DNA from: Limosilactobacillus coleohominis
Lineage (GTDB): Bacteria; Bacillota; Bacilli; Lactobacillales; Lactobacillaceae
Assembly: GCF_016901675.1 (NCBI RefSeq)
Contig: NZ_JACJKU010000001.1
Coordinates: 1-51,162 of the forward strand
Direction of reading: 5' to 3'
Length of the DNA: 51,162 nucleotides
This document shows positions 398-41,992 of this stretch, piece after piece; within the stretch, counting starts at the first letter, position 1, and every line of letters starts with the position of its first letter. A model generated the notes under the pieces. The model made no database searches and was not told the origin of the DNA. It saw nothing but the letters and a program-made list of their open reading frames with translations. Made by a program: the position numbers and the translations under genes.

Positions 398-430
398 ATA
401 AACATACTTTATGAAGAGGAGGAATTAACC

Positions 431-517
431 ATGTCAAACTTTACTTGTTGTTGCTGTACTCACATTCTAAGTCGAGCTGACATGGCTTCAGTTGGACATC
501 TTTTTGGGGTACAGTAA
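431..517 (+). CDS. Cysteine-rich leader peptide (28 aa), predicted attenuator
   Basis: This short ORF has an excellent AGGAGG ribosome binding site at 417-422, eight bases before its ATG. The peptide begins MSNFTCCCCTHIL, with four consecutive Cys codons (TGT TGT TGC TGT, 446-457) at residues 6-9, and ends at TAA 515-517. A strong terminator follows, then an amino-acid ABC operon. This is the layout of a translation-coupled attenuator that senses charged tRNA-Cys. Bases 454-461, inside and just after the Cys codons, can pair with 507-514 near the stop codon, so a ribosome stalled on the Cys codons would open that helix. I infer a regulatory role; the peptide itself probably has no function of its own. 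Confidence 0.8.
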   Translation: MSNFTCCCCTHILSRADMASVGHLFGVQ

Positions 518-561
518 TAATGAATCTCTTAGAGATGGACAATTAATTCCTAACAAATGTT

Positions 562-598
562 AAGGATCACTAGTCATGGATAGCTAGTGATCCTTTTT
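562..598 (+). terminator. Rho-independent attenuator terminator of the Cys leader
   Basis: The arms AAGGATCACTAG (562-573) and CTAGTGATCCTT (584-595) form a perfect 12-bp stem with a 10-base loop and run into a T stretch. It lies between the leader peptide and the first permease gene. A competing hairpin, TCCTAACA (548-555) with TGTTAAGGA (558-566, one bulged A), overlaps the left arm and could act as an antiterminator. Confidence 0.85.
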
Positions 599-632: not shown

Positions 633-1292
633 ATGAGTTGGACAGTTATCCAACAAAGCCTACCGAATTTCGTGAAAGGATTCCAGTTGACTTTATGGTT
701 ATCTTTAATCGGAATTGTTGGATCGGTGATTGTTGGTATCATTACTAGTTTAATACGTTATTTTAAAGTTCCAATATTAGGAAAAATTTTGGGAGCATAT
801 GTTGAAATCGGAAGAAATACTCCGTTATTAATTCAATTATTCTTCTTGTACTATGGTTTTCCTGTATTAGGGATTAAACTTTCCGCTGAAACGAGCGGAA
901 TTATTGGTTTAATCTTTCTTGGAGGAGCCTATATGGCTGAAGGATTTACCGGTGGTTTTAATGGGATCAGCAAATCGCAAATTGATGCAGGAAAAGCTCT
1001 GGGAATGAGCCCTTGGCAAATGGCGCGCTATGTGGTCCTGCCTCAAGGTTTAACGCTGAGTGTACCAGCATTTTCCGCGAATGTGATTTTCTTAATTAAG
1101 GAGACGTCGATTTTCTCGGTGATTGCTATTCCTGAATTAACTAATACAGCACTAGATTTAATCGGAATGTACTACCGCTCAAATGAATATTTGTTGGTCT
1201 TAGTCATTGCGTACGCAATTATTTTAATTCCGTTGATTATCATTTTAGATTGGCTTGAAAGGAGGGTTCGATATGGCTCATTCGGGGATTAA
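633..1292 (+). CDS. Polar amino acid (probably cystine) ABC transporter permease
   Basis: This 219-residue inner-membrane permease belongs to the HisM/GlnP family. It has several hydrophobic segments, the family block EIGRNTPLLIQLFFLYYG near residue 75, and the EAA loop DAGKALGMSPWQMARYVVLPQG that docks on the ATPase. I chose ATG 633, which follows GGATGGAGAAGAAAG. The in-frame TTG at 597 lies inside the terminator and is not credible. It is the first gene of a permease-permease-ATPase-binding-protein operon and overlaps the next gene by 20 bases. Substrate is inferred from the Cys leader upstream and the BspA-like binding protein downstream. Confidence 0.9.
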   Translation: MSWTVIQQSLPNFVKGFQLTLWLSLIGIVGSVIVGIITSLIRYFKVPILGKILGAYVEIGRNTPLLIQLFFLYYGFPVLGIKLSAETSGIIGLIFLGGAYMAEGFTGGFNGISKSQIDAGKALGMSPWQMARYVVLPQGLTLSVPAFSANVIFLIKETSIFSVIAIPELTNTALDLIGMYYRSNEYLLVLVIAYAIILIPLIIILDWLERRVRYGSFGD

Positions 1293-1950
1293 TGTTTTAT
1301 TTGAAGGAAGTAATTTTGCACGATTAATGGGTGGCCTTTGGACTGCTGTATGGATTGCTGCAATTTCCCTAATAATTGGGTTGGCATTAGGGACAATCTT
1401 TGGGTTGTTGAGAACCCTAAAAAGTAGAATTATTCGTTTAATTTTATTGTTGTACTTGGAATTTTTCAGAATTGTTCCAACGATTGTGTTACTGTTCTTG
1501 GTTTACTACATTTTGCCACGTCAATTTAATGTCAATATGCCAGCTACTTGGATGGCCGTTCTAGCATTCTCATTATGGGTTGCTGCAGAGTTTAGTGATA
1601 TTGTCCGGGGAGCGTTAGAATCCGTTCCTAAACATCAACGAGAATCGGGTTTGGCATTAGGATTGGATCAATGGCAGTTGTTTAGATACGTATTGTTACC
1701 ACAAACGGTTCGACTGGAATTGCCAGCAACCATTAATTTAGCTACTCGGGTTATCAAAACCACATCATTATTAATGACCATCAGTATTATGGATGTTATT
1801 AATGTTGGTCAACAAATTGTTGAAGCTAATAATCAATCCCATCCGACTGGCGTGTTCTGGGTTTATGGATTAATTTTCATCCTATACTTTATTGTTGATT
1901 ATCCATTGTCACTATGGGCAAAACGCTTAACAGCAAAACAACATTATTAA
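1273..1950 (+). CDS. Second amino acid ABC transporter permease subunit
   Basis: This 225-residue HisM/GlnP-type permease is the likely heterodimer partner of the preceding gene. It carries the EAA loop ESGLALGLDQWQLFRYVLLPQ and hydrophobic segments near both ends. The start is ATG 1273, preceded by AAAGGAGGG at 1258-1266; the frame also extends up to a TTG at 1255 that would precede this ribosome binding site. The gene begins inside the 3' end of the first permease, so the two are translationally coupled. Both permeases having the full one-domain length suggests a two-permease transporter with a separate binding protein. Confidence 0.9.
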   Translation: MAHSGINVLFEGSNFARLMGGLWTAVWIAAISLIIGLALGTIFGLLRTLKSRIIRLILLLYLEFFRIVPTIVLLFLVYYILPRQFNVNMPATWMAVLAFSLWVAAEFSDIVRGALESVPKHQRESGLALGLDQWQLFRYVLLPQTVRLELPATINLATRVIKTTSLLMTISIMDVINVGQQIVEANNQSHPTGVFWVYGLIFILYFIVDYPLSLWAKRLTAKQHY

Positions 1951-1968
1951 TTTAAAACAGGTGATAAT

Positions 1969-2709
1969 ATGGCGGAAGAAATTTTAAAAGTCGAACATTT
2001 AAATAAATTTTATGGAGACTGGCAAGCCCTTCATGATATTAGTTTTGATTTAAAGAAGGGTGAAGTAGTGACCCTATTAGGACCTTCAGGTTCTGGGAAA
2101 AGTACATTGATTAGAACCTTGAACGGGCTAGAAGATTTTAAAGATGGCGCAATTTATTTCAAAGGTGAAAAAGTGGATCCATCGCCAAAGACGTGGCAAG
2201 GGTTACGCCAGAAAATTGGAATGGTTTTCCAAAGTTATGATTTATTTCCAAATTTAACGGTAATGGATAATATTCTGTTAGCGCCTACTAAGGTTCAAAA
2301 CCGACCACGAGAGGAGGTGAAGAAGGAAGCTATGGAACTGTTAGAGCGAGTTCAATTAGCCGACCAAGCCGATTCCTACCCAAGGCAGTTATCTGGTGGA
2401 CAGAAACAGCGAATTGCAATCGTTCGTGCATTAGCGATGCATCCTGAATTAATGCTTTTCGATGAAGTTACTGCATCATTAGACCCTGAAATGGTTCGTG
2501 GTGTTCTAAATATCGTTAAAGAATTATCAGATCGCGATCACATGACAATGATTATTGTGACTCATGAAATGAACTTTGCATCGCAAATTGCTGATAAAGT
2601 CTTATTTTTGGAAGACGGCAAGATCCTAGAACAAACTCCAGGGAAGCAGTTCTTCGAGCATCCTCAAACAGAACGTGCAAAAGAATTCTTATCAAGCATG
2701 GACTTTTAA
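1969..2709 (+). CDS. Amino acid ABC transporter ATP-binding protein
   Basis: This 246-residue cytoplasmic ATPase energises uptake by the two permeases. The Walker A motif GPSGSGKST is at residues 38-46, the Q-loop is in MVFQSYDLFPNLTVMDN near 86-101, the ABC signature LSGGQ is at 141-145, and Walker B LMLFDE is at 161-166. The H-loop lies in IIVTHEM near 200. Walker B is followed by VTASLDPEM, typical of the GlnQ/HisP polar amino acid subfamily. It lies 18 bases after the second permease and 18 bases before the binding protein, in one operon. Confidence 0.95.
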   Translation: MAEEILKVEHLNKFYGDWQALHDISFDLKKGEVVTLLGPSGSGKSTLIRTLNGLEDFKDGAIYFKGEKVDPSPKTWQGLRQKIGMVFQSYDLFPNLTVMDNILLAPTKVQNRPREEVKKEAMELLERVQLADQADSYPRQLSGGQKQRIAIVRALAMHPELMLFDEVTASLDPEMVRGVLNIVKELSDRDHMTMIIVTHEMNFASQIADKVLFLEDGKILEQTPGKQFFEHPQTERAKEFLSSMDF

Positions 2710-2727
2710 TATAAGGAGAAGATAAAT

Positions 2728-3582
2728 ATGAAATTTAATTGGAAAAAGATTATCACAGCAGCAGTTGCTGCAATGAGTGTCGCTGCTGTGGTGGCAACCG
2801 CCGCGGTACGTCCATCAACTGCTAACGCAGATTCAAATACAAGCTCAGTTAGCGCAATCAAGAAGCGTGGTACGCTTCGGGTAGCCGTTTTTGGTGATTT
2901 ACCTCCATATGGTTGGGTGAACAAAAATGGTAAGCGTGTTGGTTATGATGTTGCTTTAGCTCGTCAAATGGCGAAGGATATGGGAGTTAAGGTTAAGTTT
3001 GTTCAAGTTAATGCTAACAACCGGGTTGACACTTTAAACTCCAACAAAGCTGATATTGTTTTAGCTAACTTTACCCAAACTCCTGAACGTAAACAAGTGG
3101 TTGATTTTGCTAAACCTTACATGAAAGTTTCAGTTGGGGTTGTTTCTCCAAAGAAGAAGGCAATTACTAACGTTAACCAATTAAAGGGTAAGAAGGTAAT
3201 TGTTACCAAAGGTACTACTGCTGAAAACTACTTTACTAGTAAGCAAAAGGGCGTTTCACTTTTGAAGTTTGACTCTAAGACTCAACAATTCAACGCCTTA
3301 AAGAACAACCGTGCCGCAGCGTTAGCTGATGATAATTCTTATCTCTATGCATGGGTTAAGAATAATCCTAAGTACACTGTTGGTATTAAGAGCATTGGTC
3401 CTAAGCAATACATTGCCCCAGGTGTTAAGAAGGGTAACAAGTCATTGTTAAACTGGACTAATAAGGAAATTACCAAGTTAAACAAGCAAGACTTCTTTAC
3501 TAAAGATTACAACAGTGAATTGAAGCCATACTTTGGTAGTGAAGTTAAGCCTTCAGACATTGTAATTACCTCTGACAAGTAG
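2728..3582 (+). CDS. Extracellular solute-binding protein family 3, BspA/CnBP/MapA-like
   Basis: This 284-residue secreted binding protein captures substrate for the ABC transporter. Residues 1-34 form a classical signal peptide with a predicted cut after TANA. There is no cysteine near the cut, so it is not a lipoprotein. The mature part starts with SAIKKRGTLRVAVFGDLPPYG, the usual family 3 entry, and continues with ADIVLANFTQTPERKQVVDFAKPY, a ligand-site block. It is rich in Lys and strongly codon-biased, suggesting high expression and a basic surface. L. fermentum BspA (cystine uptake) and L. reuteri CnBP/MapA (collagen/mucus binding) are known proteins of this unusual non-lipoprotein type. 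I infer orthology from organisation and motifs. A cystine substrate fits the Cys leader upstream. Confidence 0.88.
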   Translation: MKFNWKKIITAAVAAMSVAAVVATAAVRPSTANADSNTSSVSAIKKRGTLRVAVFGDLPPYGWVNKNGKRVGYDVALARQMAKDMGVKVKFVQVNANNRVDTLNSNKADIVLANFTQTPERKQVVDFAKPYMKVSVGVVSPKKKAITNVNQLKGKKVIVTKGTTAENYFTSKQKGVSLLKFDSKTQQFNALKNNRAAALADDNSYLYAWVKNNPKYTVGIKSIGPKQYIAPGVKKGNKSLLNWTNKEITKLNKQDFFTKDYNSELKPYFGSEVKPSDIVITSDK

Positions 3583-3635: not shown

Positions 3636-3685
3636 AAAATTGACGCGAAGCATTCGGATAATCCGAGTGTTTCGCGTCATTTTTA
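3636..3685. terminator. Bidirectional terminator between the ABC operon and the minus-strand kinase gene
   Basis: GACGCGAAGCATTCGGAT (3642-3659) pairs with ATCCGAGTGTTTCGCGTC (3661-3678) to make a long hairpin. An A run lies on its left (3635-3640) and a T run on its right (3680-3684), so it can terminate transcription from both sides. Confidence 0.85.
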
Positions 3686-5539: not shown

Positions 5540-5737
5540 ATAATTAATGACCGATGAAAAAAGAGTGATTAATTACTGCTGATTAAGCGAGTAGGTGATG
5601 GTGAAAGACCTATTGAAGCGTAATTAAGTGACACTTTTGAGGCCCGGCAATGCCCGTCGCTAGTGCGACGTTATCCATGAGTGATACCAAGGTGGTACCG
5701 TGCTTTTGCACCCTTGTTTAGCAAGGGTGTTTTTTTG
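5540..5737 (+). promoter_or_regulatory. T-box riboswitch controlling hisS-aspS
   Basis: The T-box sequence AAGGTGGTACCGTG is at 5689-5702. Stem I is visible: TTAATTAC (5571-5578) pairs with GTAATTAA (5620-5627), a distal TAGGT/ACCTA hairpin lies at about 5592-5613, and the loop-E-like AGAGTGA is on the 5' side. The 3' side of the specifier loop reads GTGACA before the closing CTTTT. In the canonical register (codon followed by a purine) the specifier is GAC for Asp at 5630-5632. The His codon CAC (5632-5634) overlaps it. The terminator follows directly. The upstream TTGACT at 5496-5501 may be the -35, but no good -10 is evident. Confidence 0.9.
5709..5736 (+). terminator. T-box terminator before hisS
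   Basis: CACCCTTG (5709-5716) and CAAGGGTG (5722-5729) form an 8-bp stem followed by seven T. The left arm CACCCTTG can instead pair with CAAGG of the T-box element, which gives the usual antiterminator/terminator switch. Confidence 0.9.
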
Positions 5738-13679: not shown

Positions 13680-13894
13680 TGTAAATTAAATGAGTTTAAC
13701 GAAGACGGAGAGTTTCCTAAAAGTGATTTTGTCAGCGAGCAAGGAATGGTGTAAGCCTTGTAAATCTATTTAGTGAATGGCACTCTAGCAGTTAAGATGA
13801 ATTAAGCTGTTTCACAGAGATGTGAAAAAGCAGGGTGGAACCGCGATTCATTCGTCCCTGCAGTGGCCTTAGTGCCATTGCAGGGGCTTTTTTT
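13680..13894 (+). promoter_or_regulatory. Glycine T-box riboswitch controlling glyQS
   Basis: The T-box motif is AGGGTGGAACCGCG (13832-13845). Its TGGA is complementary to TCCA, which matches the U discriminator base of tRNA-Gly. The specifier region GAATGGCACT contains the Gly codon GGC (13779-13781) followed by A, as expected. The terminator stem CCCTGCAGTGGC (13856-13867) with GCCATTGCAGGG (13874-13885) ends in a T run at 13888-13894. All parts agree on uncharged tRNA-Gly as the ligand. Confidence 0.95.
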
Positions 13895-22757: not shown

Positions 22758-22765
22758 ATAAACAA

Positions 22766-22943
22766 ATCGAAGAGGAGCGACCAACATAAGTAATGGTTAC
22801 GAGTTTTTACCTGATGATGACTAACTGTAAAAGGGGCGGTCGCCGAAGCGGTGATGATGGTAATAAGTCACTGAGCTGGGTCGTGGTTGAATAAACTACG
22901 GACTGTCGCAAGACAATATCAGCTTGCGGTGCGCTATCGACTA
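22766..22943 (+). promoter_or_regulatory. Lysine riboswitch (L-box)
   Basis: The core elements of the lysine aptamer are present in order: AGAGGAGCG, AAGTAATG, GGGGCGGTCGCCGAAGC (22834 region), GCTGGGTCGTGGTTGAATAA and GGACTGTC, and the closing GGTGCGCTATCGA that pairs with the 5' end to make P1. The match to the B. subtilis lysC leader is clear by eye, notably GTCGCCGAAGC and TTGAATAAA. A terminator follows at 22962-22997, so lysine binding should stop transcription of lysA and the DAP genes. Confidence 0.95.
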
Positions 22944-22961
22944 CTGGATAAATAATATGAA

Positions 22962-41848: not shown

Positions 41849-41873
41849 ATTCTTGTACAATAAAATGATGGTT

Positions 41874-41992
41874 TGTCTTCAAGGCAGGGTGTAATTCCCG
41901 ACCGGCGGTAAAGCCCGCAACCCGCTTAGCGGTGGAATCTGGCGAAATTCCAGATGCCGACAGTATAGTCTGGTAGATAGAAGATTATGCTT
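41874..41992 (+). promoter_or_regulatory. FMN riboswitch
   Basis: The RFN-element core is unmistakable: CTTCAAGGCAGGGTGTAATT, then CCCGACCGGCGGTAAAGCCC, GCAACCCGCTTAGCGG, and GGCGAAATTCCAGATGCCGACAG in pieces, closing with TAGAAGATTATG. FMN binding should favour the terminator at 42015-42041 and turn off the riboflavin transporter gene. Confidence 0.97.

Follow-up and report, generated by a model that had tools for sequence, protein, structure and literature searches.

The leader of an amino acid ABC transporter operon near the start of the analyzed window, a stretch of 51,162 nucleotides from Limosilactobacillus coleohominis, very probably (about 85%) controls an importer for cysteine, a sulfur amino acid, through ribosome-mediated transcription attenuation in response to charged tRNA-Cys. 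A short ORF with a run of Cys codons lies upstream of an intrinsic terminator, the Cys cluster is shared with relatives, and mutually exclusive RNA pairings are kept in the leaders of sister species. The leader thus points to cysteine as the likely substrate of a transporter that is left open by family models.

Leader ORF, terminator and importer operon

The original prediction described a 28-residue ORF with four consecutive Cys codons, followed by a terminator and an ABC operon, and all of these elements are present on the forward strand of the window:

369-397, + strand: sigma-70-type promoter TTGACA-17-TATAGT, matching 11 of 12 consensus bases
416-422, + strand: Shine-Dalgarno (SD) sequence GAGGAGG of the leader ORF
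431-517, + strand: leader peptide ORF, MSNFTCCCCTHILSRADMASVGHLFGVQ, 28 codons and 28 amino acids
446-457, + strand: putative sensor, four consecutive Cys codons (TGT TGT TGC TGT), a Cys cluster common to relatives
515-517, + strand: stop codon TAA of the leader ORF, followed by TAA and TGA to give three consecutive stops
562-595, + strand: intrinsic terminator (region 3 with region 4), 13 pairs and then a U-tract
633-1292, + strand: amino acid ABC transporter permease 1
1273-1950, + strand: amino acid ABC transporter permease 2
1969-2709, + strand: amino acid ABC transporter ATPase
2728-3582, + strand: substrate-binding protein (SBP), closest solved relatives 2yjp and 1xt8
3641-3679, + strand: terminator-like hairpin 3' of the operon (633-3582)

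The ORF at 431-517 thus combines a short reading frame and a strong SD with clustered codons of the amino acid that would be regulated. It ends 115 nt before the first operon gene and contains a single Met codon after the start codon, outside the Cys run. As bare DNA, the TGYTGYTGYTGY run is not rare in the genome, where it matches 13 times and the reversed pattern 6 times; across relatives, the feature that stands out from chance is the shared, in-frame and SD-preceded Cys cluster. The motif AGTAAG directly follows the -35 element of the promoter, and the -35, the AGTAAG and the -10 are identical in the nearest relatives of the window (L031, L032 and L036). The promoter scan as a whole returned fewer promoter-like sites than shuffled sequences (9 against 13.8, sd 3.6), so the assignment of 369-397 is based on its 11/12 match and on its occurrence in relatives. 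The terminator, situated between the leader and the first structural gene, folds with -18.7 kcal/mol (z -6.46), which none of 200 shuffles equaled, and terminator-like sites are in excess over the whole scan (7 against 2.2 in shuffles).

The NCBIfam equivalog models score below their cut-offs, and therefore the family alone does not settle the substrate of the operon. In comparison with solved structures, the SBP is closest to 2yjp (E 1.7e-79) and 1xt8 (E 1.7e-77), with the next best match far behind (1.3e-40). The latter of the two structures is presumably CjaA of Campylobacter jejuni. The former is described as an L-cysteine binding protein of Neisseria gonorrhoeae (PMC7170509), and for C. 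jejuni CjaA the binding of cysteine is reported, with its role in import given as unproven (PMC4178425). The original prediction named cystine as the substrate; on the strength of these two relatives, L-cysteine is more likely. Furthermore, a permease 1 with 77.5% identity is encoded in the same four-gene order on plasmid NC_008502.1 of L. paracasei ATCC 334. The orthologous L. paracasei operon glnP2-glnM2-artM2-glnH4 is reported to be preceded by a Cys T-box (TGC), with expression in cysteine-deficient medium exceeding that in methionine-deficient medium by 2.5-2.9 log2 (PMC6004538). The identity of the leader codons hence fits the function of the operon, given cysteine binding by the SBP relatives and the response of the L. 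paracasei ortholog. The cysteine synthase family TIGR01136 has no match at E 0.001 in the genome of the window (99.66% complete), while all 14 control genomes match. Cysteine uptake is therefore likely to matter to the organism, with TIGR01136 being the one cysteine route covered by this search.

Cys leaders and alternative pairings in relatives

A DNA-level search with the leader retrieved only three clear relatives (L002-L004), as these leaders diverge fast, and the comparison was therefore made via the permease. Permease 1 was found in 24 of 50 genomes of the genus (E up to 1e-60) and in 87 of 396 genomes of the family (E up to 1e-80). A short upstream ORF with closely spaced Cys codons precedes it in all 24 genus genomes, window included, and the rest of the peptide diverges, which bears out the expectation of conserved Cys runs. 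SBP-bearing loci from named genomes (the best 80 of 214) have the same gene order throughout. For loci that are incomplete after the permease start, identities were computed over the available part.

All fetched loci together gave 143 unique upstream regions (L098, too short, was left out beforehand), 39 with a T-box motif and 104 without. For a leader call, an ORF of 8-65 codons had to follow an SD and to contain two or more Cys within five residues; ten rounds of dinucleotide shuffling served as baseline. By this definition, 50 of the 104 regions without a T-box have a Cys leader, against a shuffle mean of 5.3 (maximum 9); with at least three Cys in five residues the count is 37 against 0.3 (maximum 2). 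The two-in-five definition is satisfied by 1 of the 39 T-box regions and by none of the 104 reverse complements. Met clusters are also enriched (20/104 against a shuffle mean of 0.6), and His and Trp clusters are not, with one each in the 104 regions. Common residues often pass the weaker definition (Leu 34, Val 24 and Ser 23, as raw counts without a shuffle baseline), but no residue other than Cys exceeds 7 under the three-in-five definition. The leader sequences are not independent of one another, amounting to 43 distinct peptides when three doubtful ORFs are left out. These include 27 representatives below a string-similarity ratio of 0.6, such as MVWDSQMQMMTMPCCCSNNRLFGHPQISAFRRDH, MRNLNNVKQMQACCCVVMMQNTLLYYFSMPNTTLN and MTQFINVMQNMMCMCCSCMVKNTCLFAFSKLSFKTRSLGL, and the peptides differ widely outside the Cys/Met cluster, with variable Cys spacing. 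Mixed clusters of Met and Cys codons are seen in the leaders of L106, L132, L074, L045 and L055.

After exclusion of the doubtful ORFs (L148, L158 and L210), 46 of 47 leaders, window included, are separated from the operon by a hairpin with a T run; it is weak in three of these (L051, L054 and L129), and none was found in L126. These four are L. mucosae-type leaders with a different layout, which the ribosome simulation does not fit; they end in ...ACC-stop, so that their Cys codons abut the stop codon. L126 was omitted from folding for want of a hairpin, and all four from the shuffle control.

Among the 54 non-T-box regions without a leader call, the 25 with a permease 1 of at least 62% identity were read by eye. 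Three of them, all from Lactobacillus (L056, L. helsingborgensis; L058; L080), have a terminator without a Cys leader. Four (L066, L087, L089 and L090) retain a leader in which the Cys codons are isolated and number just one or two; the leader of L085, obscured by N, resembles that of L091; and no recognisable leader was found in the remaining 17. The pattern that the original prediction regarded as contrary to attenuation, a terminator kept while the Cys codons vary freely, hence does occur in a small Lactobacillus group, as a terminator without a Cys leader, with the Cys codons retained in each of the 24 genus genomes that have permease 1. Inspection of the other 29 regions, with a permease 1 below 62% identity, covered L107, L109 and L110. 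In L107 (Fructobacillus tropaeoli), a short SD-preceded ORF beginning MRMCMQR, noted by eye, lies 5' of permease 1, and its SD region GAGGACCA matches TGGTCCTC just past its stop, an arrangement that is possibly a related switch.

A separate observation concerns the motif TTGAC-N3-7-AGTAAG at the start of the promoter spacer (369-385 in the window). It occurs in 27 of the 143 unique regions, in 19 of the 50 Cys-leader regions, in none of the 39 T-box regions and nowhere in reversed sequence; in L041 and L074 the match sits elsewhere. The motif may serve as an operator through which the operon is controlled at a second level.

The alternative pairings were followed in an alignment (A2) of 16 sister Limosilactobacillus leaders, in which L034 and L038 are out of register over the region 1 strand. 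Pairing of the SD/start region with the stop region (R1:R2) is possible in 87.3% of the cells, that of the stop region with the 5' arm of the terminator (R2:R3) in 92.5%, and the terminator itself (R3:R4) in 96.6%, compared to 22 to 50% in slid controls. The covariation scores of the three pairings are above most shuffles, with 7, 1 and 0 of 500 as high, respectively, while double-sided pair changes are ordinary for R1:R2 (89/500 as high) and R2:R3 (410/500), the sequences being related. At one position, coordinated changes run through all four strands (columns 21, 117, 189 and 206). Columns 21-117 form A-U in 7 and G-C in 6 sequences and are unpaired in 3; columns 117-189 form U-A in 8 and C-G in 8; and columns 189-206 form A-U in 8, G-C in 5 and G-U in 3. 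By their sequences, the sister leaders are of the classical 1:2, 2:3, 3:4 design. The mutually exclusive pairings anticipated for related leaders are thus kept in these 16, with some covariation, and together with the Cys leaders in 24 of 24 genus genomes they support the proposal of a ribosome-stalling Cys attenuator.

The window belongs to a clade with a distinct leader sequence (alignment A1; tree), together with L031 (L. coleohominis), L032 (excrementigallinarum) and L036 (caecicola). Another 8 of the 28 unique Limosilactobacillus regions (L045, L051, L054, L074, L075, L126, L129 and L132) are in neither alignment. When the four leaders of the window clade are aligned with MAFFT, the central hairpin described below is misplaced, so that pair counts are uninformative on that hairpin; for the stalled fold, the sequences were folded singly, with all of the RNA through the first Cys codon and a further 12 nt masked. 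In this fold, region 2, which in the window clade lies within codons for Asp-Met-(Ala/Val), pairs with the distal 5' arm of the terminator in all four members. Pair 486:573 is C-G in the window and U-A in L031/L032, and the pair that 573 forms in the terminator is G-C in the window and A-U in these two relatives, so that the change involves three strands at once. The adjacent pair, 487:572, is disrupted in all three nearest relatives in this alignment.

Folding of 43 loci gave a mean sequestration of the terminator 5' arm of 0.64 with a stalled ribosome, 0.31 without a ribosome and 0.17 with a ribosome at the stop codon, compared to 0.50, 0.48 and 0.31 for shuffles. The difference between stalled and free states is matched by at most 1 of 25 shuffles in 25 of the 43 loci, the window (0.24) not being among them. 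Moving the ribosome from the stop to the Cys codons raises sequestration by more than 0.1 in 42 of 46 loci and lowers it in 2, part of this rise being expected since less RNA is masked at the Cys position. A mutually exclusive antiterminator pairing is thus supported in the 16 sister leaders and, by folding, over the 43 loci, and weakly in the window.

Predicted switch in the window RNA and competing explanations

The RNA elements considered for the predicted switch of the window, in addition to the terminator, are:

429-436, + strand: region 1 (CCATGTCA), a potential partner of 478-485 that overlaps with the leader start codon
447-461 with 507-521, + strand: helix between Cys codons and stop region, 15 contiguous pairs including G-U
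475-493, + strand: hairpin that presents region 2 (CATGGCT) in its loop when no ribosome is placed on the RNA, probability 0.98
481-487, + strand: region 2 (CATGGCT), proposed 5' strand of the antiterminator; pairs with 572-578 in the stalled-ribosome fold
497-537, + strand: central hairpin (497-503 with 531-537), forming when the Cys codons are covered
548-566, + strand: mini-hairpin of the original prediction, no better than chance
572-578, + strand: region 3 (AGTCATG), proposed 3' strand of the antiterminator, in the 5' arm and loop of the terminator

The original prediction noted a helix of eight pairs (454-461 with 507-514), which is real but was understated, as it extends to 15 pairs (447-461 with 507-521). 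Both the Cys codons and the first two of the three stops are buried in this helix, which has a probability of 0.99 without a ribosome, and no shuffle out of 200 folds as well as segment 445-521 (z -5.32). The mini-hairpin at 548-566 was also part of that prediction and can indeed form, but not above chance: segment 527-580 has a z of +0.42, and 123 of 200 shuffles fold as well. It was rejected as the main antiterminator, also because moving the ribosome between Cys and stop makes no difference to its presence in the minimum-energy fold.

Without a stalled ribosome, 447-461 would pair with 507-521, region 2 would be held in a hairpin loop, and the terminator at 562-595 would halt transcription. 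When Cys-tRNA is short, the ribosome is predicted to stall at the first Cys codon and to cover the Cys codons and region 1; since the first Cys is only the sixth codon, a ribosome stalled there would cover region 1 as well. The central hairpin (497-537) could then form, region 2 (481-487) would pair with 572-578, and RNA polymerase would read into the transporter genes. With ample cysteine, the ribosome would reach the stop codon and block the central hairpin, and the terminator would form.

Folding agrees with this scheme to different degrees. The probability of the central hairpin is 0.99 in the stalled state and 0.0 both in the free state and with the ribosome at the stop, where the helix between Cys codons and stop region, the central hairpin and R2:R3 are all absent. 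For the RNA of the stalled state (461-580), 199 of 200 shuffles fold less well (z -2.45). With the footprint on the first Cys codon, R2:R3 (481-487 with 572-578) reaches a probability of only 0.34. With the ribosome on the fourth instead of the first Cys codon, R1:R2 returns at 0.97, compared to 0.0 without a ribosome, and defeats R2:R3; the CCATGT:ACATGG core of R1:R2 is invariant in all four window-clade members. In the window alone, sequestration of the terminator 5' arm is 0.53 in the stalled state against a shuffle mean of 0.61, and 0.47 at the stop. The completed terminator is favored in every state (0.97) and, since it wins thermodynamically throughout, antitermination would have to be kinetic. 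The pairing of 481-487 with 572-578 is likely the antiterminator of the window leader, according to these folds, and this antiterminator is the weakest link in the case for attenuation.

The enrichment of Met clusters in upstream ORFs (20 of 104 against 0.6) and the ATG specifier context of the T-boxes in L079, L084, L093 and L109 raise the question whether the leader senses methionine, alongside or in place of cysteine. This is rather unlikely, as the window has one Met codon past the start, outside the Cys run, the TGC context is found in 18 of 24 named T-box loci against 4 with ATG, and the best solved SBP relatives bind cysteine. Control by a T-box or a metabolite riboswitch, with the ORF being incidental, would be in keeping with the use of T-boxes by this organism, whose genome has 24 matches at E up to 0.001, 10 of them over the family cut-off, so that both systems are evidently in use. 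Such control is barely conceivable here, because 360-640 holds no Rfam family at gathering score, the T-box leader (RF00230) included, and the T-box matches of the contig at E up to 0.001 are those at 5545-5718 and 13693-13862 only.

Two further explanations assign the leader a different role. The leader could act through translation, by nascent-peptide arrest or general translation speed rather than by tRNA-Cys-dependent transcription attenuation, and cysteine genes of M. smegmatis are described as being under translation attenuation (PMC13236596). Yet a hairpin with a T run separates leader and operon in 46 of 47 cases, three of them weak, the leader ends 115 nt 5' of the first gene, and the peptide sequence is free apart from Cys/Met, which argues against an arrest peptide; this explanation is therefore very unlikely. 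A small Cys-rich protein acting in trans, for example in metal or redox binding, would likewise have a strong SD and its own promoter-like sequence, and the terminator would belong to it. However, the peptides differ widely outside the Cys/Met cluster (27 representatives below 0.6) with varying Cys spacing, the leader RNA of sister species pairs with its start region and with the terminator, and a T-box replaces the leader in sister genera, all of which make a protein function highly improbable. Transcription attenuation through charged tRNA-Cys accordingly remains the preferred reading.

Possible exchange of sensors, and known systems

In Lentilactobacillus, Secundilactobacillus, Lactiplantibacillus and Loigolactobacillus, the operon has a T-box ahead of it; in Enterococcus alishanensis, a T-box precedes a more distant homolog, whose permease 1 shows 49% identity. 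The T-box counts are lower bounds, resting on a short regular expression for a T-box sequence motif; Rfam at gathering score missed the T-boxes over 12 loci, and a relaxed threshold gave sub-gathering matches in L079 and L057. The specifier context in the 24 named T-box loci, read by regular expressions and seen in an Rfam alignment for L079 and L057 only, is TGC in 18 and ATG in the four mentioned above, with L088 and L097 unread. In the window itself, the T-box matches at 5545-5718 (53.7 bits) and 13693-13862 (62.8 bits) are below the gathering score and precede hisS-aspS and glyQ-glyS, and Rfam places a lysine riboswitch at 22762-22945 and an FMN riboswitch at 41871-41989.

A tree of both permeases with 79 rows (39 Cys leader, including four with isolated Cys codons; 24 T-box, the L109 label assigned by hand because the regular expression missed it; 16 neither) requires 8 label changes and is unrooted. 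The Companilactobacillus leaders adjoin the T-box genera at a weakly supported fork. It may tentatively be proposed that the importer operon swapped its sensor at least once, possibly twice (in Companilactobacillus and in the Limosilactobacillus-Lactobacillus-Ligilactobacillus clade), with a tRNA-binding T-box (Cys or Met) and a translated leader as the alternatives, and that some mixed Met/Cys leaders are combined sulfur amino acid sensors, although this stands at clearly less than even odds. With some genera using a T-box and their sister genera a leader peptide for one operon, the group offers a natural experiment on the replacement of RNA sensors.

The importer permease is also found on 12 plasmid records (8 Lactiplantibacillus, 3 Lacticaseibacillus and 1 Lactobacillus), 4 of which are predicted to be mobilizable. 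On the L. paracasei plasmid (L229, NC_008502.1, 14617-17557), the operon and a nitroreductase gene are flanked by insertion sequences. In L. paracasei, the cysK2-ctl1-cysE2 operon is described as having a terminator and high 5'-UTR coverage, with no T-box reported, and as more highly expressed in cysteine-deficient than in methionine-deficient medium (PMC6004538). A Cys leader may be hidden ahead of this operon as well, which is not among the listed genes of plasmid NC_008502.1.

In the trp/his-type attenuators of enterobacteria, regulatory codons in a leader ORF are combined with alternative pairings and an intrinsic terminator. A Leu-rich leader attenuator is described for the ilv-leu operon of Staphylococcus aureus (PMC5794164). 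The window leader resembles both in its regulatory codons and intrinsic terminator and in its predicted alternative pairings, and differs in that it would sense cysteine and in that its region 1 is the leader's own start region. His leader peptides, reported ahead of hisZ and of a hisS copy in bacilli (PMC2965389), are a further instance of a leader peptide instead of a T-box in Bacillota, for another amino acid and another gene. Cys leader peptides are reported for cys operons of Mycobacterium and Propionibacterium and for cbs of Bifidobacterium (PMC1262725; Canestrari 2020 as cited in PMC13236596). As in the window, a short ORF containing Cys codon runs precedes genes for sulfur amino acids, but these leaders are described as having no obvious terminators and in terms of Rho-dependent or translational models, whereas the window has a clear intrinsic terminator and so does not fall within this actinobacterial type of polycysteine uORF.

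A close match in design is the uORFC-8-2 motif, a predicted ribosome-mediated transcription attenuator 5' of cysS in Rhodobacterales, in which a uORF has tandem Cys codons held in the first stem and a U run is regarded as an intrinsic terminator (PMC8632094). That motif belongs to Alphaproteobacteria and to a cysteinyl-tRNA synthetase, in contrast to the Bacillota and the ABC importer of the window, and the match is one of design. In mechanism, the window leader is therefore known in kind, Cys leaders with a terminator having already been proposed for cysS (PMC8632094). No report of a Cys leader attenuator for an importer operon in lactobacilli was found in the open-licence literature, among the matches listed. 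The Cys T-box of the orthologous L. paracasei operon glnP2-glnM2-artM2-glnH4 responds to the same signal, the charging of tRNA-Cys, but does so by direct binding of the tRNA (PMC6004538), as opposed to the translated leader of the window. The window leader would thus add a Cys-specific leader-peptide attenuator to the Bacillota, in which T-boxes are the usual expectation.
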